Shown here: one piece after another, positions 456 through 63,097 of the stretch
Numbering within the stretch: the stretch's first letter is position 1
How the letters are laid out: the number at the start of each line of letters is the position of its first letter
From: Vulcanisaeta sp. JCM 14467
GTDB lineage: Archaea; Thermoproteota; Thermoprotei; Thermoproteales; Thermocladiaceae
NCBI RefSeq assembly: GCF_001316245.1
Contig: NZ_BBDM01000007.1
Location: forward strand, 1 to 64,000
DNA: 64,000 nt
Reading direction: 5' to 3'
The notes under the pieces: model-generated
Databases searched by the model: none
What the model was told of the DNA's origin: nothing
The model's input: only the letters and a program-made list of their open reading frames with translations
Translations under genes and position numbers: made by a program

Positions 456-1309
456 GTGTTTATTTGCCCCTTGGTTTGTTTCTTCTCCGTGCTTGGTAGG
501 GTTCTTGATAGGGTTAGGGTGTTTGGTGTTGGGGATTTGCCCGTTGAGCTTCGTGGTTGGTCTAGGGAGGTTGGGGAGGTGGATTTTGAGTACCTGCACT
601 GTTTCCGAGGCCTTCAGCCGTGCCCCACCCATAGGGATGTTTATGTGAGGAGGGTTCTTGGTCTTCAGCCGAGGGTTAATGAGTCATTGAGCATTGGTAG
701 GGCGCTTCATGAGTTGTTCCTCGCACCGCTCAGGTTGGTTAATAGGGTTAGTGCCGGGGACGTTATTGAGGAGTTGAGCAGCCTGAAGACCCAGTTACTG
801 AGTGACCTGCCCAGGGACCTGGTTGGGTTTGGTAAGGTCGTGTTTGAGGCATCGTCCAGGATCTTGATGGACCTGGTCTATGATGGTTACCCAATACCCG
901 TGGCCGTGGAGCCGAGCCTGGAGGGCACGGTAATCGGCTTCTCAGACGTGATCAGGCCCGACCTGGTCATCGGCTCCGTGCCCGTGGAGGTCGTGGTCTC
1001 AGACAACCCGGATTACCTGGCTAGGAAGGAGCTAGCGCTGGCTGTCTATGGCATGGCCGTGGAGGCCCACCTGAGTAATCCCGTTAATTATGGGGTCCTG
1101 GTCGTGATCAACCCCAGGGTTCAAACCATGCAGTTTAGGCACGTGGTATTAAGCGACTCGCTTAGGCGTGAGGCTATTAAGGAGAGGAATGAGGTGGCCA
1201 GGATCGTGTCGCGTAGGGATGACCCTGGCCCAGCCCCTAAGTGCCTGACTCATGCCCGCTTAAGGATGTTTGTAGGGGTGTTGGTAATGTCGAGGTTAAT
1301 AGTGTCTAA
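456..1309 (+). CDS. csa1: CRISPR adaptation protein Csa1 (Cas4-family), frame broken near 1245
   Basis: Csa1 is a type I-A Cas4-like iron-sulfur nuclease family protein that assists spacer acquisition. The family signature VELRGW, the motif THRDVYVRRVLG and the run ALHELFLAPL are visible in the first third. As sequenced, the frame runs on into cas1 as one 596-codon ORF. One extra C at the cc of 1244-1245 restores a C-terminal cysteine cluster (KCPDSCPLKDVC) and a stop at 1307-1309. The repaired length is 855 bases, a whole number of codons, so I treat the fusion as a sequence error. The start is GTG 456 or GTG 489. The N-terminus is poorly conserved. Confidence 0.85.
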
Positions 1310-2246
1310 GCCCTCGAGAATATACGTTAGGAGGGGCGTGGTTAGGGTTAGGAGTGCTGATGGTGAGGAGTTGGTCGTGGACTCTACGGTAGACTCCATC
1401 CTCGTGGTTTCGTCTAGGGTCTCAATAACGTCAATGGCCATTAGGGCGTTGAGCAACATGGGCGTTGACGTGGTCTTCCTTGCCAGGAATGGGGAGCCCG
1501 TGGCCAGGGTCTACCCACCCATCATTAATAAGACGGTTATGACTAGGAGGGCTCAGTACGAGGCCCTACTGAACGGTAAGGGGTTGTACGTGGCAAAGGT
1601 GATTACTAGGGCTAAGATCATGAATCAGGCAAACCTGCTCAGGTACATTGGCAGGAGTAGGAGGATTGATTCTTTGAGGGATGAGGCCGTGAAGCTCGAT
1701 GAATTGGCCATGGGCCTGGAGAGGGCCGGCGAGGCCTCCAGTATCATGGAGGTTGAGGCCCAGGCCGCTAGGCATTACTGGCAGTCCATTGCCCAGGTGG
1801 CGCCCCCTGAGTATGGGTTTAAGGGTAGGGACCAGGACGGTAAGGACCCACTCAACCTAATGCTCAACTACGGCTACGGCGTGCTAAGGTACATAGTTGA
1901 GAAGGCCCTGCTAATCCACGGCTTCGATCCATACGCAGGCTTCCTACACGCGGATAAGAGCGGTAAGCCGAGCCTAACCCTCGACATTATGGAGCCCTTC
2001 AGGCCCATTGTCGATAAGGCCCTGGTCTTCGCCGGGCTTAGGGTCGATGTGGTTAGTGGCTTCCTCAGTTATGAGTCGAGGGCATCGATTATAAAGACCG
2101 TTACGGAGGAGTTTCAGGGCAGGGTTTACCTGGGCGCTAGGTCGACGACGCCGCTTAAGGTCCTTAATAACTTCATTGAGGGTTTGGCTTCGTACCTAAG
2201 GGATGACGTTAATGACTTGGACCCACCCGTCATTAGGTGGGGTTGA
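1287..2246 (+). CDS. cas1: CRISPR integrase Cas1
   Basis: Cas1 is the metal-dependent integrase that inserts new spacers together with Cas2. With ATG 1287 it has 319 residues, normal for the family. The N-terminal beta domain (SRIYVRRGVVRVRSADGEE, MGVDVVFLARNGEPVA) is followed by the helical catalytic domain. Probable metal ligands are the Glu in VEAQAARHYW, the His in GFLHADKSGKPS and the Asp in LTLDIMEPFRP. Its start overlaps the repaired csa1 end by 23 bases and its stop overlaps the cas2 start, so the genes are translationally coupled. A natural Csa1-Cas1 fusion is the less likely alternative. Confidence 0.93.
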   Translation: MSRLIVSKPSRIYVRRGVVRVRSADGEELVVDSTVDSILVVSSRVSITSMAIRALSNMGVDVVFLARNGEPVARVYPPIINKTVMTRRAQYEALLNGKGLYVAKVITRAKIMNQANLLRYIGRSRRIDSLRDEAVKLDELAMGLERAGEASSIMEVEAQAARHYWQSIAQVAPPEYGFKGRDQDGKDPLNLMLNYGYGVLRYIVEKALLIHGFDPYAGFLHADKSGKPSLTLDIMEPFRPIVDKALVFAGLRVDVVSGFLSYESRASIIKTVTEEFQGRVYLGARSTTPLKVLNNFIEGLASYLRDDVNDLDPPVIRWG

Positions 2247-13067: not shown

Positions 13068-14183
13068 TCATTCCTCGGGCAAAAATCTCTTAATTACTGC
13101 GTAATAGAGAGTTATTGAGAAGATGGCTGTGAAGGCTAGAGTTGATAGTAGCATTGTGTAGATGGCGATTGGTGGTATTGGTATTAGTGTGTTTGTGAAT
13201 TGTGTTATTGGTAGGCCCGTGTTGCCGTTTATGAATAGGTATGGGTACCTGGATCCGTCGTTTACGTACTCCATGAGTATGAGTATTGCCTCTGCGAGTA
13301 TGCCTGTGCTCATTGTGGCTGGCCTGGTGACTTTGCCCTGTAGTGTTGTGTAGAAGGCATATATGGCTGTGGTGGCTAGGGCTATGGTTAGGGCTATGGC
13401 CATGTAGAAGGCTGGGTAGAACATTGCCGTGGTTGGGTCGTAACCGAGTAGTGGGCCTGCGATGTTCCTGGCTATGTATGGGTCGTACCTCTGGAGCACC
13501 GTGTAGTAGTAGGCTCCGGCTATTGCCTGTGGGACGAGTAATAGTAGGCCTGTGCCTAGGGCTATCTTGATGCCCCTAATGTTTAGGTTCCTCCTTGTGG
13601 CGAGTACCGTGGCTGTTACGAAGGCCCCGATGTCCATGGCGCCAATCAGCGTGTGGGCTATGAGAGGTGGGTATACTGGGTTTGAGAGTGCGGTGAGTGG
13701 GTTAAGGCCGTTGGTCGTGTATTGCATGTAGTCTAGGCCCGCGAAGAGGTATCTGAAGCCTATTGGGACTAGGAGTACGGATATGGCCATTGGTATTCCG
13801 ATTAGGCTGTGGGTCCTTGGGCTTACCCTGCCCCATAGGTGCCAGTAAATGGCTATGAGTGGTATGCTGATGAGTATTCCCGTCAGGCTATGGCCACTGG
13901 GTAGAAGTAGGTCCTCATGAATATGGCCGTCATTGATGGGAATAGGCCGGCCATGAACACGGTAAGTATCGTGCCCCAGACACCGCCGAAGAGCTCTGAC
14001 ACAACCATTAGCCTAAACATGTCCCTAGCCGTGGTCTCCAGCCCCGCGTCGTTGCGCCTGTACGCTAGGTACCTGGTTATCACTGTTAGTACCGTAGCCC
14101 CAATTATCACGTTAACGAAGACCAGGTGCATCTCCAGGGCGAAGCGAGGACGGCGAATGAGAGTAGGCTAGGTAGTCACTCAT
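13068..14183 (-). CDS. Cytochrome bd-type oxidase, second CydA-like subunit (frame breaks)
   Basis: This is a multi-spanning membrane protein resembling a shortened CydA: MHLVFVNVIIGATVLTVITRY with a possible haem-ligand His, then VSELFGGVWGTILTVFMAG, which mirrors the GTxxEF region of CydA. It is probably the partner subunit of the upstream oxidase gene. One missing C near 13886 (minus gcctgac for gccctgac) joins two frames. Another discontinuity lies between ATG 14183 and 14131. ATG 14183 overlaps the upstream stop. Subunit II (CydB) identity is not supported by motifs. Confidence 0.75.
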
Positions 14184-15832
14184 GGCCGCCCACCCCAACC
14201 AATTCTCTTACCCTGTCCAGTAGGCTTGGCCTTGTGGCTACGTAGTACATTGCCAGGGCACCAACAATGGCTATGGCAAGTAGGATAATGACTACGAAGG
14301 CCACGAAGCCGGGCGTTATGGGGTCGCTTGTCACGACTTCGTTCGTGGTTATTAGGCCGTAGACTGTCCAGGGCTGCCTACCAATCTCCCTCGCTGCCCA
14401 GCCGGCTGTTGCCGCTATGGCTGATAGCACCGCCATTGCCGAGGCTAGGAAGGGCATCACGTTGTCGGCGCCTATCAGTACGCCGAGTATTTCGTTGTTT
14501 ATGAAGTCCGTTATCGCGGATAGCACGGGCACCCTGACCAGGTAGGTGAATAGTACCAGCACTGCGGCTATGGCAAGTAGTATGCCGGCGCCAATCATTG
14601 TGTAGTAGAAGGTACTAACCAACGGAGCCAACGGCTCTAGGGCTAGGACAGCCGCCTCGCAGTTCTGGGCTAGCGTCACGTTGGCCATTGGGCCGAGGTA
14701 GCTGAGCATCCTTGGGTCCAGCTCGCTGTATAGTTGGCTGAAGGTTGTGTTGCCTAGGGCCTGGCATTGGACTAGGTAGTACTTGAAGCCGTATAGTGGG
14801 TGGCTTGGGTTTCCGTAGGCGAACAACGCCTCTATTGGGTCGTAATACTCATACCCATAGACCCCTGGCCCACCGGTCAAGGTGGTCAGTGCCGTGAACT
14901 TGGGTGGTTGGTAGGCGACCACGTCATCACCCATGAAGTGGCCGAGGACTATCGGCTCGATGAGGAGGACTATGGCTAGTACCCAGAGTAGTGGCTTCAG
15001 TAGCTTGATGTACCTGCTGTCGTGGGTCCTGAAGAACCTTATTGATAGGGCTAGGGCCACGGCGCCAACACCGATTGCGTAGGCCGCGAGTAATGTGTGG
15101 AGTGTGGTCACTATTGCGTCTGGGTTTACCATGGGTAGCCATGGGTTTGTGAAGTAAGTACCGACCATTGAGGTGAAGTTGGCGTTGGTTAGGGCCACCG
15201 AGCCAGCGCCATCTATTGTGTAGTGCAGTAGTAGGGCTGCGAGGTTTAGTGTTGCGGTTAGGTTTGCGGCGTTTGGTCCGTAGGTTGGTAGGAATGGGTA
15301 TAGGTCGTGTGGTATGTCGCCCATTCCCCAGGGCACGTTCATCCAGCATTTGCCGTTAGTATGAAGTAGCCTGAGAGTGAGCCGAGGAGCCACGCGGCTA
15401 TGAGTATGCTGAGGGTGTACTTGGCACTCCACCTGCCTATGGCGATTATGAAGAGGACTACGAGCACTGCCTCGCCTATGAAGCTATGGTTGCCTCGTAG
15501 AGTAGTGGTATGAAGGCTGAGGAGGAGAAGAGTAGTATGCTCGTCGGCCAAATGTCCAACAAACCAAACTCTACTATGGTCCCCGTGACTGCGCCTAGAG
15601 CGAAGTTCACGGCCCAGACCATGGTCAGGGTCTTGGAGTAGTTCAGGAATAATTCGTCCCCGGTCCTGTACCACTTAATGAGCCATGCGAGTATGGCTAG
15701 TGGGAAGCCTAGGGTGAAGGATACGAAGACTGCGTGTAGGTAAATACCGACTATTGTCATCACCATGGCGTTGCTGACATTGGTACTATGCACGTAGACC
15801 TCACCGAGTGGCCCCAGGGCCGTGTAATCCAT
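14176..15832 (-). CDS. cydA: Cytochrome bd-type ubiquinol/menaquinol oxidase subunit I (frame breaks)
   Basis: CydA carries the haems and quinol site of bd-type terminal oxidases. Family regions visible after repair are ALGAVTGTIVEFG, LYEATIAFIGEAVLVVLF, SGYFILTANAWMNVP and VTTLHTLLAAYAIG. Two single-base losses interrupt the gene near 15483 and 15346, each fixed by one C in GCC on the coding strand. The repaired length is 1659 bases, 552 residues plus stop. It is followed with overlap by the second subunit gene. It implies a bd-type terminal oxidase with oxygen as the probable acceptor. Confidence 0.85.
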
Positions 15833-16026
15833 TCCTGGTCGCGCAGTTGATTTGGCTACTACTTAAAATGTCTGGTGTATTGATTAATTATCATAATTAA
15901 TGATTCACTGCTAAATTTGCTGAAGCTGGTGCTTGGATTTATTTATTATTTAATTGCATTCAATTGAATAATTGCGTGGTGAGACCTCGGCAAAAGTTTT
16001 TCTCTGGTTTTTGCAGAGTATTACCT

Positions 16027-16954
16027 GTGAATTATTGGCTAATCATTGTTAGGGAGAGGACATTCATGGACATTGCCGAGAAGGGGTTCTTCGGCTGTAG
16101 GGACCTGAGTGCGGGCTATTGATGACTAGGGTTAGGCCTGGCACTAGGCTTGTGGTTTTCGTGAGTGGCTTCGGCTGTAAGTCCTACTGTAAGTCCTTTG
16201 TTGGTGTTCTTGAGGTTGTTGGGGATTGGGTTAAGGCTAGCAGCAAGATTGGTGATTGGTCACACGTTGTTGAGGTCAAGCCAATAGCCCTGGGTAGGGT
16301 TGAGCTTGGTGCCGTGGCTGGCAAGCTGTCCTTCATCAGGGATAGGAGGAGTGTTACCGAGGCCCTGCACTCCGTCGATCCGGCTAACCCCAAGGCCATG
16401 CCCATGCCACCTGAGGATGCCGAGTTAATAATGAACGAATTAAGGAGACAATCAACGCCGAGGCCGGCTGTCGAGACCCTGGCACAGGTGCTGGTGAGAC
16501 CAAGCCTGCCGTGGCCAGGGCGGTTGCCGAGACTCAGGGTGTTGGGTCTACTGACGCCATTGGGTTGTTGGTTGAGGTTGCCCAGTTGCTTGGTTATTAC
16601 CCTGTGAGGGATGTTGAGGTTGGTGGTTATAGGCTTGGGCTTGCCTGGTGGGGTGATGAGGATGAGTATAGGGATGGCTTGGCGCCGCTGGCCGTGTTTG
16701 AGGTCGTGGAGAGCCCCGAGCAGGTCCTGGCGAGGCTTAAGCATGCGAGGGATCGTTGGAGAGGCGTTAGGCTATACGCCATCGTCGCTGATGAGAAGGC
16801 TAAGCGTAGCCTTGAGGCGGCCCTGAGGGGTTCGTTTCATGAGCTTAAGAGGAGGGTTAAGGTCATAATGCTTAACGAACTCCAGGGCCTTGTCCAGGAC
16901 CTCAGGAAGCACGGTGACCTAGTCAGGGAGTTCGTGATGTTGGGTAGGGATTGA
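16027..16954 (+). CDS. EVE-domain protein fused to a restriction-endonuclease-like domain (frame breaks)
   Basis: The N-terminal 130 residues (MNYWLIIVRERTFMDIAEKG ... TRVRPGTRLVVFVSG ... FVGVLEVVGDW) match the EVE/PUA-like fold, which reads modified bases. After a linker, the C-terminal half has LAPLAVFEVVESPEQVLARL and RLYAIVADEKAKRSLEAAL, a PD-(D/E)XK-like arrangement lacking a canonical Glu-x-Lys. Two single-base losses, near 16104 (gacctgag) and 16483 (ggcaca), break the frame. Repaired length is 930 bases. Modification-dependent restriction is inferred, not shown. Confidence 0.68.
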
Positions 16955-17177: not shown

Positions 17178-18217
17178 ATGAGTAATGCACTCATTGACAT
17201 TTGCCATAGACTTGATGAGTGCCTAGGCAGGGCTAGGGACCTTGGTGGTTTAACGCTGTTTGATGCCGCGTCTGGTTTTATTGACTATGACGGCCTATCA
17301 TACGCGCTTAATTACCTGAGTGGTGTGGGCGATATTAGGGTTGTGGTTGGCGACCTTGGCTCAGTGCCGAGGGTTGTCTATGAGAGGTGGCGTGACGTGA
17401 TCAGGGTTTACCCTGACCTCCACGCTAAGCTTTACCTGCTCGGTAACGGGCTCGCCATTGTTGGTAGTGCCAATTTAACGAGAGGTGGTCTTTATGGTAA
17501 TGTTGAACTGAACGTTATGATAAGGGATGGGGAGCTTTATGAACGATTAATGAATTATTTCGATGAGCTTTGGCGAGCAGCCAAGCCGCTCACTGAGGAT
17601 TACGTGGAGGATGTTGAGGAGGTTGAGGTTAGGAGCGCCAAGCATAGTGTGGCTGAGTTCGTTAATAGGGTTAATAAGGCATTGGCAAGTATCCTCGGCA
17701 TTAACGAGAAATGCCTAACCACGTTTAACCAGGTACAATGCTCGATTATCGTGGCCGAAGCCATCAACAGGAGGTTCCGTGACTGTAGTGATTTACCGGA
17801 GAACTGCGTTGTAGAGACAGTGGCTGAGGTTTTGAATCTTGAGGTTAGGGAGTTGGCTAGGCGGTTAATGAGGGAACCTGGCTCGGCCATTGTGGCTGGG
17901 CACCACCTATGTTGGGTTAGAACCTTCATTAACCTGCTGAGGACTGGGCGCGTGGATGTTGATGAACTTAGCAGCGGCATTAAGATTTATAAGGCCATGG
18001 TTAGGGCAGCATCGCGGGAATGCCCTGAAAGGCCGGTAAGGCGGCCAACGAGGAGCTTGAGAGGCTTAAAGATGAGCGTTACAGGGATAATTATGTTAGG
18101 TGGAAGATACCGTACAGACTACTGCCGCTGGCCCTCGTACTCCCAATCACCAATTGCAGACTAGTTGGTACACGCAGGAAGGGTGGTAGTATGTTGAGGA
18201 AACTGGTTTGCGAGTAA
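17178..18217 (+). CDS. Phospholipase D-family nuclease-like protein (frame break near 18030)
   Basis: One HKD-type motif is seen: HAKLYLLGNGLAIVGSANLT (His82, Lys84, Ser97, Asn99). A single motif implies a dimer, as in PLD-type nucleases. A cysteine-containing helical C-terminal half follows. One missing A in the gaaa run at 18028-18030 switches frame; repair gives the tail KAANEELERLKDERYRDNY and a stop at 18215-18217 (346 residues). A TATA-like acttaagta lies about 27 bases before ATG 17178. The substrate is unknown. Confidence 0.7.
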
Positions 18218-18253
18218 TGAGGAATAAAATCATCCATACCTAATCGGGGACTT

Positions 18254-18674
18254 CTAGGCCCAGGGCCTTAGCACGGCCTTCATAATCTCCACGGCTCTCC
18301 TGGCCATGTTTAGTGAATTCTCGCATCCTGCTACCATAAATATCCCACGGCGTTAAACCACGCTCGGGTTCCCCGTAGGTGCTCCTACCATGCTCTGGAG
18401 CTAATCTCCTGGCTATTGCGGCAAGCTCACGGGCTAGGTCGGTTAAGTCCCTCGGTAGGTTGTTAATTATTGATTCGAGCTCGCCCGATGGGTCGTGGCT
18501 CCAGTTCGGTATTCTGTAAACCGCTATTACAGCCTTGGTGGCGTTCTCTGCAGTTAGTTGGGCGTTGGCTACCGTGCCCCTCCAGTCGCCTCAGTTGAGT
18601 GCTTCATTGGCTTCCCTTAGGTAATTAATGGCTAGTTTATACCTATAGTTGACCTCATCGATCGGGTCGTACAT
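18254..18674 (-). pseudogene. HEPN-domain protein, partner of MNT, interrupted
   Basis: The frame from ATG 18674 reads YRYKLAINYLREANEALN, meets TGA at 18591-18593, and continues in the same frame as GDWRGTVANAQLTAENATKA, a clear HEPN domain. RLAPEH fits the RX4-6H RNase motif. Near 18314 a one-base excess (or two-base loss) shifts to a frame ending ENSLNMARRAVEIMKAV. HEPN/MNT pairs are toxin-antitoxin modules. The two lesions may be sequence errors or real inactivation. Confidence 0.65.
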
Positions 18675-19131: not shown

Positions 19132-19377
19132 GGGTTCTAAGCCAAATTAATTACATTAGATCAGATCCTTATATTAACTTACTCACGGGGTCTCCGTGCA
19201 ATGCGGTGATTTAAATGAGGATGCTTAAGCCCGTGCTTCGGGCGTATACGTAATGGCGTGGCTGCATTTATTATGCATCATATAATTAATGCCTGGCGTG
19301 AGTTGCCCTTTATTCTGCTCGGTTCATTTTATCTGAACACCCGAGGTTCTAAAAAAAAGGTCCGTGGTTTTGCTTAG

Positions 19378-22873: not shown

Positions 22874-22972
22874 TGGTGGGGCCGCCGGGATTCGAACCCG
22901 GGATCACTCGGGCTCGCGTCCGTTGTCGTGGATCCCGAGCCGAGCATCCTAGCCAGGCTAGACTACGGCCCC
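22874..22972 (-). tRNA. tRNA-Pro (CGG) with a 21-base intron
   Basis: On the minus strand the acceptor arms GGGGCCG (22966-22972) and CGGCCCC (22878-22884) pair, followed by A73 and an encoded CCA (22874-22876). The T arm CCGGG-TTCGAAT-CCCGG is standard. The anticodon stem CTCGG/CCGAG closes a loop with anticodon CGG at 22937-22935. An insertion of 21 bases (22933-22913) sits at the canonical 37/38 site, where archaeal splicing endonuclease cuts a bulge-helix-bulge. Confidence 0.9.
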
Positions 22973-34625: not shown

Positions 34626-34858
34626 CGTACTTTTGGGAAAAATACTTTATTTAAGTATTTCCCTAGGATATAAAGCATCCGTAAATCAATGAGCATCCAC
34701 ATTATACTAGTTATATGGCGGAAAAACTTAAATATTTTATAAATTGACCTATATCTGATGAGGTGCTTTATTCTTTACGTATGATGGGGACAAAAATGGC
34801 ATGTTGAACCCGCGGTTAAATGAGACTGTGGCGAGGTCTGAGGTGATTACGTTGGGTG

Positions 34859-43546: not shown

Positions 43547-43896
43547 GTAGTGGTGCCTGGGCACCAAAGACGACAAAACCGCTGGGTTGGAGGGAGTTAC
43601 CGGCGATTGGTGGTTATGTTATTGAGCCCATGAGCACGGCAAAGAATAACACCGGCTCCTGGAGGACTGAGAGACCCGTAATTAACCAGGACGCATGCAT
43701 TAGGTGTAGGACCTGCTGGATATACTGCCCAGAGCCCGCAATACTAGAGCTAGACAAACCCTACGTGACTAAGGACGGTAGGAGGTATGAATTAACCTAC
43801 GAGATTGATTACGACCACTGCAAGGGCTGCGGAATATGCGCACACGAATGCCCAACCAAGGCAATAACAATGGTACCCGAGGGTGCTGAGGAATGA
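43543..43896 (+). CDS. porD: 2-Oxoacid (pyruvate):ferredoxin oxidoreductase delta subunit
   Basis: Two 4Fe-4S motifs ([14 protein letters not shown] and [14 protein letters not shown]) relay electrons from the beta subunit to ferredoxin. Length is 117 residues. It overlaps both neighbours by four bases. Trp in place of Leu in CRTCWIYCP is typical of Por delta subunits. Confidence 0.94.
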
Positions 43897-45121
43897 GCCA
43901 GGCAGTTATTGAGCAAAGGGTTAGGAAGGGAGTGGTTAGGGATAGGGTTGCCGTGACCTCAAACCATGCCGCTGCCTACGCGGCTAGGGATTCCGAGGTT
44001 GATGTAGTGGCTGCATACCCAATAACGCCCCAGACGCCGGCCGTTGAGAAGATAGCCGAGTTCATAGCGAATGGCGAGATGAGTGCTGAATACATACCCG
44101 TGGAGTCTGAACATAGTGCATTATCAGCATTAATAGGTGCTTCAGCCGCAGGTGCCAGGACATTCACGGCAACCTCAAGCCAGGGACTATTCTACATGTA
44201 CGAACTACTCTACATAGCCTCGGGCCTGAGACTCCCAATAGTCATGGCCCTGGCCACAAGGCTGCCTCAGCGCCGATATGCATCCACGGTGACTACCAGG
44301 ACCTGGCATCCGTCAGAGATGCTGGTTGGGTTGTAATGATTGCGTCTAGTGCTCAGGAGGTTTATGACTCAATAATCATGGCCTACAGGATTGCGGAGGA
44401 CAATAGGGTGCTGCTACCCGTAATGGTCTCCTACGACGGATTCCTAATGAGCCACACAACAGAACCCGTGGAACTCTATGATCTGGAGCTGATAAGGAGG
44501 TTTGCGCCAAAGAGGATTGATAGGCCTATACTAGACAGTAAGAGACCAATTACCATGGGCGTGATGGCAATACCTGATTGGTACTACGAAATTAAGTACC
44601 AACTGATCGATGCAATGCATAATTCAATGAGTGTGATTAAGGAGGTCCATGATGAGTTTAATAAGACCTTTGGCAGGAACTATAGGCTTATTGAGGAGTA
44701 TAGGCTCGAAGATGCGGACTATGTAGTGCTAGCCTACGGCGGTATTTGGGGAAATGTCAAAAAGGCCGTTGACGCGGCTAGGAGGATTGGCATAGGGGCT
44801 GGGGCCTTAAGGCTTAGGCTGTTTAGGCCGTTCCCAACGGAGGAGTTGGTTAAGGCTGTTGAGGGCGTTAAGGCCGTGGCCGTTGTTGATAGGGCAGTGA
44901 GTCCAGGGGCTCCAATAGAAGGCCCGGTGGCTATTGAGGTTGCCACGGCATTAAAGTCTAGGGGATTGAATACGCCGGTGATCTCGGTGGTCCATGGGCT
45001 TGGACAGAGGACCGTGTTCTCAAGGGACATTGCTGAGTTAATAAGGATGTTAAGTACGTCGGAACCCATGGAAATGGCGAGGAGCACCATATACATGGGG
45101 GTGAGGGAGTATGGCGGTTAA
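43893..45121 (+). CDS. porA: 2-Oxoacid (pyruvate):ferredoxin oxidoreductase alpha subunit (frame break near 44266)
   Basis: The start region [20 protein letters not shown] and [20 protein letters not shown] are conserved substrate-binding elements. A missing C at 44265-44266 (ctgcctcagc for ctgccctcagc) shifts the frame; after repair the sequence reads [20 protein letters not shown]. Repaired length is 1230 bases, 409 residues plus stop. It overlaps porB by 11 bases. Confidence 0.92.
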
Positions 45122-46177: not shown

Positions 46178-47427
46178 ATGGGCCTAACACTGACAGAGAA
46201 AATACTCAACAGGGCCTCAGGCAAGTCGGTAAGCCCTGGCGATGTTGTCGAGATTAACGTAGACCTAGCCGCCTTCCACGACCTCACTGGTTACCACGTT
46301 GTTGAGGTCATGGAGAAGATGGGTACTGTCAAGGTCTGGGATGTTAATAAGTTCGTCCTAGCCTTCGACCACCTGGCACCACCACCCACGGAGAGGGCTG
46401 CCGAGATACAGGTTGGGCTTAGGAAGTTCGCTAAGGCGGCTGGCGTTAAGTTCTTCCATGACGTCGGCGACGGCATACTCCACCAACTACTCCTTGATTA
46501 CTACGCACTGCCTGGCCAGGTGGTTATGGCCGCTGATAGTCACACAACCACGGTAGGTGCCGTGGGCGCCTTCGCCCAGGGACTTGGGGCGAGTGATATA
46601 GCCGCGATAGTCATTACTGGCAAGACCTGGCTAGTGGCGCCCGAGCCATTTAGGGTTAGGATACTTGGCAAGCCAGGCCCTGGGGTTTATGGTAAGGACG
46701 TGGCACTTCACTTACTCGGTGTGTTTAGGGCTGAGGGATTGAACGGTAAATCCGCAGAGTTCATAGTAGAGAACCCAGGGGCATTCCCAATGGATTACAG
46801 AGCTACGGTATCGAACATGGGCATTGAACTCGGTCTCGACGCAGCCATGTTCGTGCCAGACTCCGAGACCATAAACTACATCAGGGAGAGGAGAGGTATT
46901 GAGGTTAAGCCTGTGACGCCGGATCCAGATGCGAGGTATGTGGATGGCTATGACGTGGAGCTAAATAGGCTTGAGCCGCTTGTGGCCGCGCCGCACAGTG
47001 TTGATAATGTTAAGTCCATAAGTGAGGTTGAGGGTTTGGAGGTTGACTACGTGTTTATAGGTTCATGCACTAACGGTAGGCTCAGTGATATTGAGGTTGC
47101 GGCGAAAATACTGAGGAATGGTAAGGTAAGGAGTAGGTGCGTTGCAATACCAGCCTCAAGGGACATTTACATAAAGGCCTCGGAGCTAGGCTACATAGAC
47201 ACCTTGGTTAGGGCAGGCTGTGTGGTGACTTACGGGACCTGTGGACCTGCCTAGGTGGGCACTTCGGACTCGTGGGCCCTGGGGAGGTGGCTATATCCAC
47301 GGGTAGTAGGAACTTCAGGGGTAGGATGGGCTCGCCAGAGGGTAGGGTTTACCTGGCGAACGCCGCCGTGGCCGCGGCAGCCGCGTTGAATGGTAAATTC
47401 GTAGACCCTAGGAAGTACCTGACGTGA
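46178..47427 (+). CDS. leuC: 3-Isopropylmalate/homoaconitate dehydratase large subunit (frame break near 47246)
   Basis: Aconitase-family enzyme: [35 protein letters not shown] and [16 protein letters not shown] carry substrate residues and the three cluster cysteines. A missing C at 47246-47247 stops the frame just inside the last motif. Repair extends it to TGA 47425-47427, giving about 417 residues. The start is ATG 46178, about 25 bases after a tataaatact box. leuD lies 1.7 kb downstream on the opposite strand. Confidence 0.92.
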
Positions 47428-47987: not shown

Positions 47988-48245
47988 AAACCTCGCCTTT
48001 CTAGGGCAGGGTAAGGATTTTTTTAAACTAGATTAATTCTCCCTACTGTCCACTAGGTCACAGGCTGCACAGTGACTTGGACGGTGCATTAAATATACTA
48101 AGGAAAGCCACAGGGAAAATCATTAATAGTATAGGAAAACCCCTTTCCTTCATCGTTGATCACAACAGAGTAGTTCCCGTAAAAGGGGGTAACGCCCAAG
48201 ACCCAGGTAAAACCCCGCCCTTTAGGGCGGGGAGTGGGTCAGTTA
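47988..48245 (+). mobile_element. IS200/IS605-type relic with TnpB C-terminal fragment
   Basis: A short open stretch 48077-48262 reads LDGALNILRKATGKIINSIG, the C-terminal end of TnpB. Just upstream, YCPLGHRLHSD resembles a worn zinc-finger end. Downstream is a perfect stem-loop at 48213-48232 of the kind found at right ends. An imperfect cctcgcc...gggcagg stem at 47991-48010 may be a left end. The transposase gene and most of tnpB are gone, so this is a short non-autonomous remnant. Confidence 0.7.
48213..48232 (+). repeat. Perfect GC-rich hairpin at the element's right end
   Basis: ccccgccct and agggcgggg pair perfectly around a two-base loop. Such hairpins mark IS200/IS605 right ends and the 3' end of TnpB-associated omega RNA. 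It may now act as a terminator for both convergent neighbours. Confidence 0.75.
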
Positions 48246-49836: not shown

Positions 49837-51406
49837 ATGGTCGGTCAGGGTGGTGTAGAAATCCGCCAGGGTTGAGGTACTGGACACGACACTTAGGGAT
49901 GGGTCGCAAATGACTGGTATCTCGTTCACACTCAATGATAAGGTAAGGATTGCCCTAATGCTTGATGACCTAGGTGTTGATTATATAGAGGGTGGTTGGC
50001 CAGGGAGTAATCCTAAGGATGCCGAGTTCTTTAGGGTAATGAGGAATTACTCCCTAAGTCATGCAAAACTCGCACCTTCGGCATGACTAGGAGGAAGGAT
50101 GTAAATACGAAGGATGATCCAAACCTCGCGGCCATATTGGATTCGGGCGTTGGCGTGGCTGTCCTCGTTGGTAAGTCCTGGATACTTCACGTTAGGGAAG
50201 TGCTTAGGGTTAGCCCTGAGGATAATCTGGACATGGTCTACGACAGTATTCGTTACCTAAGGGATCACGGGTTAAAGGTGATCTTTGATGCGGAGCACTT
50301 CTACCAGGGATTTAAGGAAGACCCTGATTATGCACTTAAGGTTGTTAAGACCGCCGAGGAGGCTGGGGCTGACACCGTGGTACTTGCCGACACTAATGGC
50401 GCCATGCTACCGCACGAAGTCTATGAAATAACAGGTAAGGTCGTTAAGGAGCTTAAAACAGTGGTTGGAGTCCACATGCATAATGACTCGGGCTGCGCTG
50501 TTGCTAACACGGTGATGGGTGTATTGGCTGGTGCGCGCCATGTGCAGGGTACGATTAATGGACTTGGTGAGAGGACAGGTAATGCTGACTTGGTTCAGGT
50601 AATACCAAACCTGGTGCTTAAGCTTGGCTTTAGGGTTCTCAGGGATGTTAATGGCCTAAAGAAGTTGAAAGCAGTATCCAGGTTCGTCTATGAGGCCGCG
50701 GGCCTAAGTCCAAACCCATACCAACCATACGTCGGTGATTACGCCTTCTCACATAAGGCTGGGCTTCACGTGGATGGGGTTTCCAAGGTTACGAGCTTAT
50801 GAACATGTGGACCCTGAACTCGTTGGTAATACCAGGAGGTTCGTGGTTTCCGAACTCGCGGGTTCCTCAAACATACTAGTACACCTAAGGGACTTAGGAA
50901 TCAACCTGAGTAAGGACGATCAAAGGCTCAAGCGGGCGCTGGAGAAGATAAAAGTCCTCGAGAATGAGGGTTACAGCTTCGACCTAGCGCCAGCCTCAGC
51001 AATACTCATCGTACTCAGGGAAATGGGCCTATTCAAGGACTTGCTCAAGGTCGATTACTGGAAGGTGGTTAGTGATGACGATATGCATGTGGCAATAGTC
51101 AAGGTTAATGGTGAGTTGGGCGTTGCTGAGGGTGTCGGTCCAGTGCACGCAATTGATAAGGCATTGAGGAGTGTCGTCTCGAGACTATTCCCTGAACTCA
51201 ATAATGTAGTGCTTACCGACTACAGGGTTATATTACCTGGCGAGGTTAAGAACACGGAGAGTGTCGTTAGGGTGCTCATGGAGTTCAGCGATGGTAAGTT
51301 GAGGTGGAGGACTGTGGGCGTTTCGAGGAGTATAATCGCTGCGAGTGTCGAGGCTTTAGTTGATGGGCTTAACTACATCCTAATGATTAATCATTATAAA
51401 AAGTAA
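49837..51406 (+). CDS. cimA: Citramalate synthase (frame breaks)
   Basis: It condenses acetyl-CoA and pyruvate on the threonine-independent isoleucine route. The barrel motifs are [51 protein letters not shown] and GTINGLGERTGNADLVQV. The Trp of GGWPGSNPKD and the C-terminal regulatory domain favour citramalate over isopropylmalate synthase. Breaks lie in the first 15 codons, near 50075, and near 50795, where two bases of a GGGC appear lost. ATG 49837 follows a TATA box (ttatatata) by about 25 bases. Confidence 0.82.
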
Positions 51407-51511: not shown

Positions 51512-52672
51512 ATGTGCTATGTTCGAGCCTATATAGAGGTGATCGGATGGAAATGGAAACCTGTACTAAAACGGGGGGTTAGGATCTCGAAGGTAGGTGG
51601 TTCGTTACTGACGAGCGGTAATGTCCTAAGCGTAATAGGTAGGGTCGTTGGTAGGGACTACGTTGGTAATAAGCTCATCCTCGTGGTCTCTGCGATGAAG
51701 GGTATCACGGACCTATTAATAAGGGCCTTTGACAATCATGACCCCAATGCGTTAGATGTAGTGGTCTCGATGTACGTAAATGAGGCTTTAAACCTCGGCC
51801 TTAATGACTTGGCATCATTCCTTGAGCTCATGCGTGAGGAGCTGCGCAGGTTCATAAACCTGGGCGAGCCCTGGGTCAGGGATCACGTTATCGTTCATGG
51901 CGAGTTATTCTCGGTGTTGCTCATTGAGAGGTTACTTAATGATGTACTTGGTCTGAGGGCTAAGGCCGTCTATGAACCTGGCATAGTCACTGACAGTAAC
52001 TGGGGCTTCGCATCAGTAAATCACGAGTTAAGTAATAGGTATGTTATTGAGAGGTTGGGTAACGTGCTTAGTAAGTACGATATTGTCGTAGTTCCTGGTT
52101 TCCTTGGTGTCACAAGTGATGGTAGGTACACATCACTTGGCAGGGGCGGTAGTGACTACACGGCATCATTACTGGCCAATTACCTAAATGTCTCACAATT
52201 AACCTTCTACACGGATAGTGGTGGATTATTAACGGGTGATCCAAGGATAGTAAGTGACCCAGTACTACTTAGGGAGGTGAGTTACGAGGAGGCATACATA
52301 GCATCAATGCTTGGTGCTAAGAAATTTCATCCAAGGACCTTCGAACCGCTACTCAAGAGTAGGGTCTTGACTGTAATAACGGATCCCTGGCATGATAGTG
52401 GCACATACGTGACGAACAACTGCGTGTCAATGCCAAAGCTGACCACGGTTAATGAGGCTGGTAACGACTTATTCAGGGTTTCCGTGGTTGGTTGTAGGAT
52501 TTCACAAATAGATGATTTGAGGAATGAGATTCACAAAGTGGTGCTGTCATACGACGTAAGCACTGTTAAGGATGAGGGACCTCACGCCGTATCGGCATTA
52601 TTAAAAGACCGAGATAACGCAATTTCATTGGCAAGGGACCTGCATAGGTGGGTGAGGTCATGGATCGCGTGA
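51512..52672 (+). CDS. Aspartate kinase
   Basis: It phosphorylates aspartate, the entry step to threonine, methionine and possibly lysine. [13 protein letters not shown] is the phosphate-binding start, [17 protein letters not shown] and [17 protein letters not shown] are family motifs. The C-terminal part holds at most a short ACT region, so feedback control may be weak. The start is uncertain: a G6 run at 51572-51577 precedes the conserved part, and ATG 51547 lies in another frame. The gene is coupled to asd. Confidence 0.9.
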
Positions 52673-53678
52673 GGGTCTCGATACTTGGGGCCACGGGATT
52701 GGTCGGCCAGTGGATGGTTAAGTTACTGACTAACCACCCATTCATTGAGTCGTCGGTTTATCAGCATCGCCTGGCAAGGTTGGTCGTAAGTATGGCGAGA
52801 CCGTCCACTGGTTCATACCTGGTGACATACCTGAGTATGCCAGGGACATAACACTGGTCTCCACGGACCCGAAGGACCACAAGTCAGCCGACGTGGTACT
52901 GTCGGCACTGCCCAACGAGGTTGCATGGCCCATTGAGGGTAAGTTGCTTGAGGCTGGGCTTAACGTTATATCTAACGCATCACCCGAGAGGATGAACCCG
53001 AGGATACCGCTGATAAACCCTGAGGTTAATTGGGAGCACCTGGGCATACTCAGGGAGGTTAAGGGTAATTGGATTGTTAAGAACCCGAACTGCACCGCGG
53101 CCATAATATCAATGCCCCTAAAGCCGATCCAGGACTTAATCGAGACACTGCACATAGTCACCCTGCAATCGGTCTCCGGAGCTGGTTACCTGGGCCTGTC
53201 CTACCTTGCCATTGATGGTAATGTGATACCGTTCATAAAGGGTGAGGAGGAGAAGATTGATGCAGAGCTGAATAAGATGCTCGGTAGGCAATACCCGGAT
53301 AAGTTCGAGCCCTGGGGTAAGTCAATATACGTAACCACGACTAGGGTCCCCGTTAAGTATGGGCACATGGCCGTAATACATGCGATCCTCAATAAGGACG
53401 TTGACGTGAACTACGTCATTAATAGATTGAGAAGCTTCAAATCCCTGCCTCAGGAGAGGGAGTTACCCACGGCGCCTAGGGAACCAATCAAGGTTATTAA
53501 TAGGGTAGACGCACCACAACCTGCCAGGGACTTGGACCCAATGGCTGTGAGTGTTGGTAGGGTTGCGATCAGGGACAGGGTGCTCAGGCTGGTTGCCCTG
53601 GGTGATAACCTGGTCCGTGGCGCAGCAGGGATTACCATACTCACGGTGGAGACTATGAAGGTATTAAACATACTCTAG
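52660..53678 (+). CDS. asd: Aspartate-semialdehyde dehydrogenase (frame break near 52758)
   Basis: [18 protein letters not shown] binds NADP, the active cysteine is in [16 protein letters not shown], and [17 protein letters not shown] is the archaeal-type His motif. One missing base near 52758 (tttatc) breaks the N-terminal domain; repaired length is 1020 bases. ATG 52660 overlaps the kinase stop by 13 bases. It meets the homoserine dehydrogenase gene tail to tail. Confidence 0.92.
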
Positions 53679-54750: not shown

Positions 54751-55992
54751 ATGGGGATTGAAATGGAAACCTAGGCATGAGTTCTAGGGCATTAAGTAAA
54801 TACATACTAAAGTGCCCAAGATGCGGCTTTGAGGTTGAGGCAAACCCGTACGTAATGAGGTGCCCAAGGTGTGGCGAACTACTTGATGCGGTACTTATTG
54901 CTGATAGGGTTAGGATCAATTGGGGTAGTCTACGCGATAGGGGTGTGTGGAGGTATAGGGACCTACTGCCCGAGCCTGACAATGTTATTACCATGGGCGA
55001 GGCTCAACACCGCTGATCAGGTTGAGGGGTTACGGTAATGCATATGTTAAGTTTGAGGGTGCTAACCCAACGGGTTCGTTTAAGGATAGGGGAATGACCG
55101 TGGGCGTTTCGCTGGCGTCATCAATAGGTGTTAGGGGCGTCATAGTAGCTTCCACGGGTAACACGGCGGCATCCGCAGCGGCCTACGCTGCTAGGGCGGG
55201 CCTTGAATGCGTGGTTGTCCTGCCCAAAGGCGGTGTTGCCAGGGGTAAATTAGGCCAGGCCATGCTCCATGGCGCGAGGATTGTGGAGGTTCCCGGCACA
55301 TTTGATAATGCGCTTGAGTACGTACTAGAGACGGTGCTAAGTAATGGCCATGTCGAGGATGCCCATTATTACCCGCTGAACTCAATAAATCCGTGGAGGT
55401 TGGAGGGTCAGAAGACCATTGCCTTTGAAATTGTTGAGGAGATCGGCGTGCCTGACTACGTGTTTGTACCGGTGGGTAATGGTGGGAATATATACGCCAT
55501 TTGGAAGGGCTTTAGGGAGCTCATGGAGCTCGGCATTATTGACCGTGTGCCAAGGATGATCGGTGTTCAGGCTGAGGGCGCGGCGCCAATGGTTAGGTAC
55601 TGGAGGGGCTTGGGTGAGGCTAGGGTTGATAATCCGAGGACTGTGGCTTCAGCGATAAGGATTGGCAAGCCGGTTAATTGGTTTAGGGCTTATAGGGCCG
55701 CTAAGTATAGCGGTGGCATGTTCATTGAGGTTAGTGATGAGGAGATATTGACGGCCCAGAAGGTGCTTGGTAGGGAGGGTATCGGTGTCGAACCAGCCAG
55801 TGCAGCGTCGTTAGCGGGTTACATAAGGGCTCTGCGTGAGGGCTTGGTTGATGCCAGGGACAAGGTTGTGTTGATAGCCACTGGGCATGCCTGAAGGATC
55901 CAGATGCATTATTAGCGGGCAATGGTAATAATGCCATTAGCATCTCATCAATAGATGAGTTAAAGGCCCTGGTGATTAACGGGAAAATATAG
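54751..55992 (+). CDS. thrC: Threonine synthase (frame breaks)
   Basis: PLP enzyme making threonine from phosphohomoserine. An N-terminal zinc ribbon ([24 protein letters not shown]) precedes the fold. The PLP lysine is in [17 protein letters not shown] and [18 protein letters not shown] binds phosphate. Bases are missing near 54772 (acctagg), 55002 (gaggctc) and 55891 (gcatgcctga). All three repairs from leaderless ATG 54751, 26 bases after the TATA box cttaaata, give exactly 415 codons. Confidence 0.92.
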
Positions 55993-57338: not shown

Positions 57339-57464
57339 TTGAGAGACATAATCATTAACATCTATTAAAATCAAAGTTCTCTTATTTTGCTAAGACTTAT
57401 TGCTTTTGACGATATCCCTGACAAGCCTAATAAACATACCCCACATCCTCCTGACCTGCCCTGC

Positions 57465-57715
57465 TTAAGTCTCGCCAAGGTTTAGCGCCACCGCCAAGGC
57501 CTTAATGACCTCCTCAACCACCTTGTAGAGCTTCTCACTGGCCTGGACAGGATCTTTATTAACCAAGTCCATGTCCTCATTAAGAAACTTCTCAGCCAAC
57601 TCCAGGTGCGCCCTGGAGCGCCCAGTGGAGTCGAGGTTTAAAGCCCTGGATATTAAGTCGATGAGGTCTATACCTCTCTTTACGGCTTCGTTGATTATGC
57701 TCTCGGTATTGCCAT
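57465..57715 (-). CDS. PaREP1-family protein (break near 57712)
   Basis: The reading frame (INEAVKRGIDLIDLISRALN, then RAHLELAEKFLNEDMDLVNK and QASEKLYKVVEEVIKALAVA) matches the PaREP1 family found in multiple copies in Thermoproteales. One missing C at 57712 (atggcaat for atggccaat) separates the ATG from the rest; repaired length is 84 codons. A TATA-like actttatag lies about 28 bases upstream on the minus strand. The fold is HEPN-like helical. Its role is not established. Confidence 0.82.
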
Positions 57716-57802: not shown

Positions 57803-58875
<1,073 letters not shown>

Positions 58876-58923
58876 CTAACCACCCCACGATTGTACTCAC
58901 CACGCTGTTCACGGTATTCATTA

Positions 58924-59606
58924 TTAACTCAACCTTGGTTCAATGCCGAGGACCACATAGTCGCTGCCGTAGGCCCCAATGGTGTATGTGCACATTAGGC
59001 ACTTAATGTCCCTGGATAGTTTAAGGACCCAATTACCCAACTCACCACAGCCAATGCACTCATCACCAATTACCTGGGCGTTAATGAGCTATCGGGCGCC
59101 CTAATCACCATGTTAATCCTAGCCAGTGGGTTGGCCATGTACATCCTATGCTCAGCCACAGACTTACCACCCTCCCAAGTCGTCACTACACCATCCAGCC
59201 CAGGGCCGGTGTTGGCGTTGCCAGGTAGGCCCTACCAAGGCCCTTAATTAACTTACCAACCACGTTCGGATTAAGGGCAATACTAACCTCAGGCGTTGGG
59301 TAACCAAGCCTGGATAGCTCTCTGAAAAGTAACGCCCTATTAATAGCCATTATATAGGCATCGCGTGGGTTCAGAGTATCCTCGAACAACCCAGATATGA
59401 CGAAGGCCTCGAATGCATCGTCAAGGAGAAGGACGGCCTTACCACCCACATAACCAACCCCATCATCCCTAGTATTCACTAAGAATACCCTGAACCCTTT
59501 ACTCACTAATTCATTGTGTATCCTCTGCTCCACAGGCCCGTACTTACTGAGCACAAGTGAGAGGTCTTGTTTAACCGTGGTTCCCGCTTCAATGACGTCT
59601 CACCAA
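58924..59606 (-). CDS. LysX-like ATP-grasp-related protein with a cysteine cluster (frame breaks)
   Basis: I recognise only partial similarity. NRALLFRELSRLGYPTPEVS resembles the pre-ATP-grasp region of LysX/RimK ligases, and PLARINMVIRAPDSSLTP follows. The C-terminus carries two CxxC pairs (DECIGCGELGNW and IKCLMCTYTIG) that could bind zinc. Single-base losses near 59200 and 59073 interrupt it. The start is unresolved, probably TTG 59606 or GTG 59603, about 25 bases after the TATA box at 59626-59635. It is divergent from lysX. Confidence 0.55.
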
Positions 59607-59723: not shown

Positions 59724-60557
59724 ATGGAACGGTTTCCATGCTATATGACACAATGAGGACCGAAGAAAAACTAATACTTAAGGAGTTTAGAGACTTCGGT
59801 GTTACCGTCTCCCTACTAAATATTGATGAATTATCCCTAGACCTAAACAGGGTGGTAATGACCTGGGCACGGTCCTTGTTAGACCCATGAGCCACTCAAA
59901 GGCGGGGATTATCGCCCGCATCCTGAATATTCATGGAGTGAGGACAATCAATAAGGGCCTGGCCATAGAGAATTCATGGAACAAGGCCATTGCGATATCG
60001 ACCCTGGTTAGGGCGGGCATACCCACGGTACCGACAAAGCTCCTATTCTCGGCGAGCGCCCAACATGATGGTATTAATTACCCAATCATTGTTAAGCCTA
60101 TACATGGTTCCTGGGGTAGGCTCGTGAGCCTGGCGGGTAGCACCGAGGACCTAACAATGCTGCTTAGGCATAAGGCCGTTGGCGAGACTTACATGAGGAT
60201 TTCCATGGTCCAGCCATTCATTGGTGATGGCACGGACTACAGGGTTTTCGTCATTGGTGAGGAGGCTGTGGCTTCAATGGTCAGGAGACCGAGCAACGAT
60301 GATTGGAGGAGTAACGTGGCTAGGGGTGGGGTTGCCCAGGCGGTTAGGCTTGGTGATGATGCGTATGAGATAGCGATCAAGCCGTGAAGGCCCTAGACCT
60401 TGATTATGCCGGTGTTGACCTGCTCCATAATGATGAGCGTGGTTACATGATTAATGAGGTTAACGCCATACCCGAGTTCAAGGGGTTAATGAGCGTTTCT
60501 GGCGTTAATATTGCGCGTAGGATAGTTGAATATGTTATAAACACCGCTAAGAGGTGA
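59724..60557 (+). CDS. lysX: LysW-aminoadipate/glutamate ligase (frame breaks)
   Basis: ATP-grasp ligase that attaches alpha-aminoadipate (or glutamate) to the LysW carrier. YPIIVKPIHGSWGRLVSL binds ATP, GDGTDYRVFVIGEEAVASMV follows, and the metal loop is INEVNAIPEFKGLM. Breaks near 59736 (ttccatg), 59857 (gtaatg) and 60381 (aagccgtg) give four frames; repaired length is 279 codons. ATG 59724 follows a tttatata box. No lysW gene was found in the window. Confidence 0.88.
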
Positions 60558-60564: not shown

Positions 60565-61742
60565 ATGAGTAACGATCTACTCAGGTTTGAGGATGAGTAC
60601 CTGGCCAGGTACTACAGTAAGAAGCCCATAAACATTGTCAGGGGCTACATGCAGTACGTGTGGGACTCAGGCAATAATAAGTACCTCGACATGCACACGG
60701 GCTTTGGCGTTGCCTTCCTCGGACATAGGAACCCAAGGATTGTGAACGCCATTAAGGAGCAACTGGATAAAATAATAACCGTCCCACTGACATTCTACAA
60801 CGACGTTAGGGCTGAGTTCATTAGGGAATTCATGAGGGTAGTACCGAATAGCTTCGGCAAAGTATTCCTGCAGAACAGCGGTACTGAGGCCGTTGAGGTT
60901 GCCCTTAAGATTGCGAGGAAAATAAGTGGTAAAGCCGAGTTCCTGGCGTTCATGAACTCATTCCACGGAAGGACCATGGGCTCACTATCAGTGACCGGTA
61001 ACGAGAAATACAGGAAGGCCTTCGAACCACTGCCCTACAAGGTCAGGTTCGCACCATTCAACGCCGTTGACCAGGTGGATAAGTTGGTGACTGAGGATTT
61101 AGCCGCAGCAATTGTTGAGCCAATACAGGGCGAGGGCGGTGTTAACCCGGCTAAGCAGAATTCCTTAGGGCGCTTAGGCAGGTAACTAGGGAGAGGAATG
61201 TGCTCCTGATATTCGACGAGGTACAGACAGGCTTCGGCAGGACTGGGCGTGTCTGGGCCTTTGAGAATTACGGCGTTGAGCCCGACATATTCACGGCAGG
61301 TAAGTCCATAGCAGGCGGCTTACCAATAGGGGTCACTGTGGTGAGGAGGGAGTTTGGTGATGTCTTTGAGCCTGGGGAGCACGGCTCAACCTTCGCGGGT
61401 AATCCCCTGGTCATGGCCGCGGCTAAGGCCGGCGTTGAAGTATTACTAGGCGAGAATGTGCCAGAGAGGGTTAGGGCCGTGGGTGATAGGTTCATGAGGA
61501 TTCTCGAGGATGAACTCAACGGTTTAAAGGCGGTGCTTAGGGTCAAGGGCATGGGACTGATGCTGGGTGTGGAGCTTAGGAGGAGGGCTGACCCATACAT
61601 TGATAGGCTGATCAACATGGGGTTACTGACCAGCGTGGCCGGTGGGACTACAGTGAGGTTATTACCGCCGTACTGCATAACCGATGAGGACTTGGAAGCC
61701 GCTGTGAAGGCTCTTAAGGCAGTGTTTTCTGACTCCTCATGA
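60565..61742 (+). CDS. lysJ: LysW-lysine/ornithine aminotransferase (frame break near 61155)
   Basis: Class III PLP aminotransferase. VFLQNSGTEAVEVALKIARK and NSFHGRTMGSLSVTG bind the cofactor, FDEVQTGFGRTG holds its Asp, and the PLP lysine is in FTAGKSIAGGLPIGV. One G is missing at 61155 (ctaagcag for ctaaggcag); repaired length is 393 codons. It lies seven bases after lysX and overlaps the convergent homocitrate synthase-like gene. Confidence 0.93.
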
Positions 61743-63097
61743 CCTCGTTAAGAACCTCACTTAAATCCTCATTACTCAATGGCTCTCTCCTTAAACCCTC
61801 ATCGTACAACTGCATGATCCTCCTATACATGGCATCAACCAGGTCAGGTGATGGGTCCATACCATGAGCCTCAACCAATACTCTATCGATGATCTGCCTG
61901 AGTACGGGCCGATGACTATGTTAGCCCTGCGGCCAATTACCTCAGGATCCATTGATAGGTACGTCATTGGGTTCCTCAACTGGGCATCCACATGAATGCC
62001 CGCCGCTGTTGTGAAGGCATTCTCACCAACGATTGGTTGGTACCTGGGCACCTGGTAATTGAGACTCCTGAACTCCTCCGCAATTTTACTAATTACCTTA
62101 GGGTTCATACCATCAAATGAGCCCTGATCCTGGCATACCAAATGACCAGGGCCTCAATGGGTACATTGCCCGCCCTCTCGCCAATGCCGAGTAGTGTACC
62201 GTTGTTTACCGAGGCTCCGTAAAGCCAGGCAGCCACCGCGTTGGGTACTGCCATGTAGTAGTCACCGTGCCCATGAAATTCAAGTGACTCACTGGGTATG
62301 CCCAGGGCCTTCCTAAGGACCCAGACTAACTTGGGAATGCTGTAGGGTAGTGGTGCGAATGGGTATGGGACACCAACGCCCGTGGTGTCCGGCAGCTTAA
62401 TCGTGATCTCAACGCCATATCTCTCCCCAAGCCTTAGGAGCTTCTCCACGAATGGTATTACGAAGCCGATCACGTCGGACCTAGTCACATCCTCAAGGGA
62501 ACACCTAAGCCTAATACCCTCCTTGAGCGCGTACTCGGCGGTCTCGAGGTATTTACTCACGATTCTGTCCCTAGTGGAGTTGAACTTATACCTAATGTGT
62601 ATGTCCGATATGGACATGAGCATTACCATCTCATCAAGCCCAGCATCCCTAACTAACCTAACATCCTCAACCCTAGCCCTACCCCAACCAATGACCTTAG
62701 GCCACTCAAGGCCTAGGTCCCTAACGGCCTCAACCAACTCCCTATCTCTACGACTATATAGAAAGAACTCACTCCTAATGATGCGGCCGCTCCCATTGTC
62801 CAGGTCGGCCAACAACCTAAATAATCTAACGGCGTCATCGATTGAGTAATAAACATAGAATGCCTGCTGCCCATCCCTAAACGTAGTATCGGTAATAAAT
62901 AATCTCTCAGGCGGTTCAGGGTCTATGTTTATGCCGTCAGTCATTAACCTGGGAGGCAACGGCCACTGCTTAATAACGGCTTCATCCAGCTCTTCATAAT
63001 CAATACCCTCACGCCTTAATAGCTGCCTTAGTAATTCGTTTTCATTACCTCCCTGGAATCGTAGGGTCTGGTTAGTACCTGCTTCAATGGGAACCAC
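61714..63097 (-). CDS. Homocitrate/isopropylmalate synthase family protein (frame breaks)
   Basis: DRE-TIM synthase with RLFITDTTFRDGQQAFYVYY, SLEFHGHGDYYMAVPNAVAA and TLLGIGERAGNVPIEALVIW. An extension of about 65 residues precedes the barrel (LRQLLRREGIDYEELDEAVI). Breaks near 62132 (gccagg) and 61873 separate the end. GTG 63097 follows a TATA box by about 28 bases; repaired length is 462 codons. Position between lysJ and lysK suggests homocitrate synthase of the aminoadipate route, but the sequence alone does not exclude another acyl acceptor. Confidence 0.8.

Follow-up and report, generated by a model that had tools for sequence, protein, structure and literature searches.

Frameshifts in the window and in related genomes

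The stretch analyzed here, called the window, comprises 64,000 nucleotides (NZ_BBDM01000007.1, forward strand) and represents contig 7 of a draft genome from Vulcanisaeta sp. JCM 14467 (GCF_001316245.1; 25 contigs, 2.44 Mb, estimated completeness of 81.6%), hereafter termed G000. The ketol-acid reductoisomerase encoded in the window is matched best, among named sequences, by those of Vulcanisaeta sp. JCM 16159 and V. distributa JCM 11216 (95% identity). The window opens with a repeat array followed by an apparent fusion of Csa1 and Cas1, and further downstream it carries conserved genes, many of which are interrupted by frame breaks. The broken genes include those for glutamate synthase, prephenate dehydratase, an acetolactate synthase-type enzyme, and LeuA- and LysX-domain enzymes. 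An earlier note on this DNA had described about fifty frame-breaking losses in conserved genes, and we looked into their frequency, their sequence context, and their origin.

Breaks were called by aligning the proteins of relatives to the DNA with a purpose-written frameshift-aware aligner, which called 612 of 800 random in silico deletions, 405 of them at the exact position. The main scan covered the window outside some 23 kb, and positions 1 to 12.5 kb were compared with the proteins of three short cas loci only. With V. distributa IC-017 (G007), our main reference, we counted 49 frameshifting steps over 40,817 aligned bases (42 of -1, 5 of -2, 1 of +1, and 1 of +2), in good agreement with the earlier note, and 24 of the 40 genes were broken. 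V. souniana IC-059 (G010) as the reference gave 41 events over 38,715 bases, and G011, a ten-contig draft that fits V. thermophila CBA1501, gave 24 events over 17,712 bases. Among 17 distinct break points named in the earlier note (a list of 16, plus position 16104), 15 lay within 12 bases of a called event. No event was called at 57712, which adjoins a weakly aligned stretch (57366 to 57707, 57% identity) that permits no verdict on this position.

The note had also proposed a comparison with close relatives, and the finished or polished ones (G010, G011, and G007) proved almost free of breaks, with 1 event over 41,288 bases in G010, none over 19,374 in G011, and 2 over 42,200 in G007 compared to G010. 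In the rest of G000, where the count was confined to genes that have a homologue in the third of G007 examined, we found 201 events over 202,200 bases, 159 of which were one-base losses, and 130 of 247 genes were broken. Per kb, this makes 1.2 events for the window and 1.0 for the other stretches of G000. Three other Vulcanisaeta drafts fell in the same range (1.05 to 1.36 per kb), with 44 events over 34,621 bases in G002, 28 over 26,792 in G003, and 48 over 35,239 in G008. A draft from another genus, G066, showed 77 events over 40,261 bases compared to G068, which itself showed none over 31,887 bases compared to G067. Given these rates, the breaks lie far above the background of the method and of the genus, extend beyond the window, and also affect other drafts. 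Gains were few in the window (2/49) and elsewhere in G000 (17/201), and about as common as losses in G003 and G008.

Base, run length, and context of the losses

To place each one-base loss, we used a codon substitution model to score every possible placement and base and expressed the result in posterior units. C/G runs of at least two held 24.1 of the 42 units of the window, and runs of two to three alone held 23.2. Among the random in silico deletions, C/G runs of at least two held 136.3/612 at the called positions (9.4 per 42) and 31% at the true ones (13.0 per 42), and therefore the caller itself underreports runs. The lost base was C or G in 30.2/42 units in the window versus 301.4/612 in the simulation. 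The preference for C/G runs claimed in the earlier note is thus real, although weaker than claimed. C/G-run losses also occurred in G002, G003, and G008. We then pooled the 42 losses of the window and the 159 found elsewhere in G000 (n = 201) and related them to all runs in 664 kb of this genome, denominators for which only the ratios are meaningful: losses per 10,000 C/G runs amounted to 1.9 for single bases, 10.0 for length 2, and 27.2 for length 3, and losses per 10,000 A/T runs stayed between 2.3 and 4.1 across lengths 1 to 3. Of the 14 one-base gains elsewhere in G000, 3.9 units fell within A/T runs of five or more.

The C/G-run losses of G000 were 5.9-fold enriched in the homopolymer-collapsed context AG[C]T (6.1-fold at length 2 and 4.8-fold at lengths 3 to 4), and those of G002, G003, and G008 pooled were enriched 5.6-fold, with G000 as the background. 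Since the same context was found at run lengths 2 and 3, it is defined after homopolymer collapse. A test independent of base inference scored the presence of AG+C+T at most 8 bases from a break. In the window, which had itself suggested the test, 15/42 breaks were positive versus 11.9% of random coding positions; in the other stretches of G000, the numbers were 50/159 versus 10.0% (p 9e-14). The other Vulcanisaeta drafts yielded 11/38 (G002), 10/25 (G008), and 3/9 (G003). As observed at the breaks of G000, AGCT and AGCCT/AGGCT were each about 3.7-fold over random.

Other candidate signals fared less well. CCTGA, singled out by the earlier note, did not hold up as a motif: TG after the run came first only in the window (5.1 units, TA 4.6), and TA (17.6) and TC (12.6) exceeded TG (7.5) in the rest of G000. 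The other collapsed palindromes TGCA, ACGT, TCGA, GATC, CATG, and GTAC did not reach p < 0.05 at breaks in any of three sets, and CTAG was 1.9-fold enriched (p 0.0015) in one of the three. Depletion of AGCCT/AGGCT was considered as a reference-free test, and the counts showed no clear difference between Vulcanisaeta drafts and finished genomes, as is to be expected with about one error per kb.

Run-length spectra

The A/T run spectrum of G000 is shifted upward: 75 runs of at least seven were present in 664 kb versus 2 in 800 kb of G007, and only 25 runs of six versus 87, so that runs of six are apparently written as seven or eight. This lengthening rests on the run-length spectrum, as only 14 orthologous six-base reference runs were available for a direct test; in G000, one of them has seven bases and none has six. 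C/G runs of exactly seven numbered 234 to 310 per 100 kb in G003, G008, and G066, with none in the G007, G010, and G011 stretches, and C/G runs of four were down to about one third in the same three drafts. Orthologous four-base C/G reference runs had seven bases in 82/295 cases in G003 and G008 versus 0/191 in G010. Writing four C/G as seven in G003, G008, and G066 adds a whole codon without a frameshift. These run-length shifts look like homopolymer-length errors.

Broken genes and the apparent Csa1-Cas1 fusion

The broken genes of the window are listed in Table 1, together with the apparent fusion frame and the two long A/T runs.

Table 1. Broken genes and other features of the window. Pfam assignments of broken genes were mostly taken from the intact G007 orthologues (cutoff, E 1e-8).
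Feature	Position	Strand	Called breaks (approximate) and remarks
Apparent Csa1(Cas4)-Cas1 fusion frame, 596 aa	456-2246	+	Pfam Csa1 15-266, Cas1 282-523
Cytochrome bd oxidase subunit I-like gene	13071-14143	-	13888, 14145; frameshift scan, Pfam
Cytochrome bd oxidase subunit I gene	14179-15832	-	15347, 15484; frameshift scan, Pfam
Gene without Pfam family at E 1e-8	16024-16951	+	16102, 16479
PLD-like domain gene	17190-18211	+	18027
HEPN-domain gene	18249-18674	-	18271, 18332
A run of 8	19351-19358		second A/T run of at least 7 in the window
Prephenate dehydratase gene	26465-27378	-	26808
Glutamate synthase-like gene	27509-29745	-	27750
GXGXG-domain gene	29822-31799	-	six called steps: 29988, 30248, 30784, 31242, 31603, 31622
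Isocitrate/isopropylmalate dehydrogenase-family gene	31978-32959	-	32183, 32836
Cupin gene	33076-33357	+	33071, 33355
HMGL-like gene, homocitrate synthase-type domain	33462-34574	-	33676, 34419, 34523
Thiamine diphosphate enzyme gene, N, M, and C domains (putative acetolactate synthase type)	34856-36590	+	35324, 35614
FlpD/Fer4/flavin oxidoreductase gene (putatively HdrA-like)	38129-41800	+	39773, 41083, 41568
Citrate synthase C-terminal fragment	42601-42852	+	gain 42748, loss 42779
2-Oxoacid:ferredoxin oxidoreductase subunit gene (POR_N)	43893-45118	+	44262
Aconitase-family gene	46178-47424	+	47246
T run of 7	48018-48024		one of two A/T runs of at least 7 in the window
HMGL-like gene, LeuA dimer domain	49868-51394	+	50075, 50794
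Semialdehyde dehydrogenase-family gene	52648-53675	+	52750
PALP-family (pyridoxal phosphate) gene	54777-55977	+	54999, 55889
Semialdehyde dehydrogenase-family gene	57806-58875	-	57933, 58112, 58626
Gene without Pfam family at E 1e-8	58865-59533	-	58932, 59090, 59203
RimK/LysX ATP-grasp gene	59738-60554	+	steps 59849, 60382
Class III aminotransferase gene	60565-61739	+	61156
HMGL-like gene	61726-63097	-	61868, 62125

The last two steps in the GXGXG-domain gene are close to each other and may belong to one poorly aligned stretch. At 99 bases, a tRNA-Pro (CGG) gene in the window (22874 to 22972) is long enough for an intron.

The Csa1 proteins of three single-contig relatives (G007, G010, and G004) all shift frame at position 1245, a break that the earlier note had named, and Cas1 is a separate frame in these relatives. 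In eight single-contig relatives, Cas1 frames measure 317 to 364 aa; one of the eight carries an additional 440-aa copy, and one a 163-aa partial match. From these comparisons, the Csa1-Cas1 fusion is best read as an artifact of the break near 1245. A second Cas1 match in G000 (contig 4, 6958 to 7708) falls into two pieces, possibly through the same type of error. The repeat array at the start of the window (41 to 139) has repeats of about 24 to 29 bases and is matched on contigs 2, 3, 5, 13, and 16 of G000; these are probably CRISPR (clustered regularly interspaced short palindromic repeats) arrays beside cas genes.

Origin of the breaks

We propose, with a probability of roughly 0.8, that the breaks are errors in the consensus of a Vulcanisaeta draft read on a flow-based sequencer, most likely stemming from uncorrected Ion Torrent Personal Genome Machine (PGM) reads. 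We infer the platform of G000 from sister records. A V. souniana draft (BBBK01), a sister record from the Japan Collection of Microorganisms (JCM), states Ion Torrent PGM as its platform (PMC9872577), and another JCM draft, that of Paenibacillus pini, was obtained with PGM and Newbler 2.8 (PMC3961731). The G002 and G003 drafts, which show the same error type, match JCM records BBDN01 and BBBI01, which would place them in that culture collection like the PGM drafts.

In such a sequencer, a run of one base is read as a single signal and rounded to a length. At certain sites, mainly C/G runs of two to three bases within A-G-run-T (or the complement), the signal would be one too small in most reads, which would then carry the error; the underread run would leave a base missing from the assembly and the frame broken, and some long A/T runs would be rounded up. 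The genes would be intact in the cell. Because the collapsed word AGCT is self-complementary, both strands meet the same base order. A context defined on collapsed runs is more easily reconciled with a flow sequencer than with an enzyme whose site has a fixed length. The error is most likely of a known kind, an ordinary artifact, and neither damage to the organism nor a record of DNA modification. In preferring a systematic base-calling artifact to biology or RNA editing, our analysis sides with the earlier note.

Several observations weigh against this proposal. Long runs are overlong in the drafts (A/T in G000 and C/G four to seven in G003, G008, and G066), which is opposite to the undercalling of long runs reported for PGM data (PMC3623719 and PMC4719071, in the parts covered here). 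According to the portion of Bragg 2013 considered (PMC3623719), only 29% of all PGM high-frequency indels lie in homopolymers, and A/T insertions, a common type among them, are rare in G000. The context AG(C≥3)T as observed, corresponding to a true run of at least four, showed no excess, with 4/201 breaks of G000, and no excess of AG(C)nT was found in G066, a draft from another genus and of unknown platform (2/28); base inference in G066 placed 3.2/25 loss units in G-CC-T compared to G068 and 1.7/20 compared to G067. G002 and G003 have 6 breaks in common where 0.3 are expected, which a sequence-driven error can yield but inherited indels equally could. Finally, outside the window, broken genes held 5 in-frame stops in 41,707 codons versus none in 25,416 for intact genes, and 287 whole-codon gaps or insertions versus 45, and for these reasons a few of the breaks there may be real decay or misalignment.

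The overlong runs also resemble a fault in consensus length, which would speak for another flow-based source (454) or for an assembler fault instead of the reads themselves. We regard this alternative as improbable, as the frequency of about 1 per kb and the position of the C/G losses in runs of two to three are similar to the PGM data of Bragg (PMC3623719, as far as its covered parts go) and the sister record is a PGM one.

Equally improbable in our view is the origin put forward in the earlier note, namely long reads assembled without polishing, in which a modified C would have caused systematic base-calling errors. The recurrence of C/G losses in a short context in G000, G002, and G008 (with 3/9 in G003), and not in G066, would fit a modification. 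However, only about 2 to 3% of the AG(C)nT sites are affected (scaled by the aligned share of the genome), whereas frequent hits would be expected for a motif that is fully modified, and the persistence of the context in runs of both 2 and 3 bases does not suit a motif of fixed length. The upward shift of A/T runs and the PGM platform of the sister draft also argue against a modified C. The PGM platform sequences DNA that has been clonally amplified and is free of modification.

Real gene decay, by one-base deletions in the strain or in an ancestor, is very unlikely. The breaks are present in the deposited sequence, and the breaks common to G002 and G003, as well as the stops and whole-codon gaps of broken genes outside the window, are what decay would leave. 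However, the 24 broken genes of the window are close to the 25.4 expected under an even rate, and several biosynthetic pathways would go at once. In addition, the 24 broken genes within the window and the 16 intact ones are alike in amino acid identity to G007 (0.853 and 0.846), third-position differences (0.41 and 0.40), and in-frame stops (1/9,869 and 1/3,698 codons); outside the window, identities are 0.819 for broken and 0.826 for intact genes. Programmed frameshifting or RNA-level insertion that restores the proteins, to which the recurrent context might point, can practically be dismissed, as dozens of unrelated genes are affected, the same proteins are each read in a single frame in finished or polished relatives, and few window breaks are common to the other drafts (4 in G002, with 1.1 expected; 1 in G003, with 0.3 expected; and 1 in G008, with 0.8 expected).

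A flow-sequencer origin leaves the AG(C)nT preference unexplained, although the preference itself is observed at the breaks, as are their rate, lost base, and run length. Tentatively, a C/G run of two to three in collapsed AGCT could be an undescribed determinant of deletions by flow sequencers or a trait of Vulcanisaeta DNA that is carried over into the reads, but we consider such readings rather doubtful. A trait of Vulcanisaeta DNA comes into consideration because G066 shows no excess of the context, and AG(C)nT is at most a candidate platform property.

The errors have consequences for the use of these sequences. The draft is unsuitable for inferring gene loss or gene fusion, as exemplified by the apparent Csa1-Cas1 frame, and the frameshifts probably depress its estimated completeness. 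Four Vulcanisaeta drafts with such errors serve as species representatives in the genome set searched. Where no reference exists, knowing the sequence rule behind the errors could assist in flagging such genomes.

Comparison with published sequencing errors

Statements on the PGM papers refer to the parts of them covered here. PGM high-frequency indels occur at about 1 per 1000 to 2000 bases and are mostly A/T insertions or C/G deletions (Bragg 2013, PMC3623719). Strand-asymmetric indels lie in runs of two to three in 82% of cases, with C and G deletions dominating (PMC3623719). Between runs of the same DNA, high-frequency indels of the PGM are for the most part not repeated. A consensus sequence reveals neither the read-level frequency of an error nor its strand asymmetry. 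Regarding sequence context, Bragg considered a motif behind the indels merely possible (PMC3623719), and strand-specific PGM errors were not tied to a motif or had none apparent (PMC3431227 and PMC4719071), unlike the breaks of G000 with their preferred AG(C)nT context; the portions of the literature examined do not state an AG(C)nT rule, and other papers may hold one. The overcalling of long runs in these drafts also differs from flow-based sequencers as published. On the other hand, the errors are changes in run length, as with flow-based sequencers in general, and, like PGM high-frequency indels, the breaks of the window occur at about 1 per kb, concern mostly one base, and consist largely of C/G losses from runs of two or three bases, a trait of the strand-asymmetric class.

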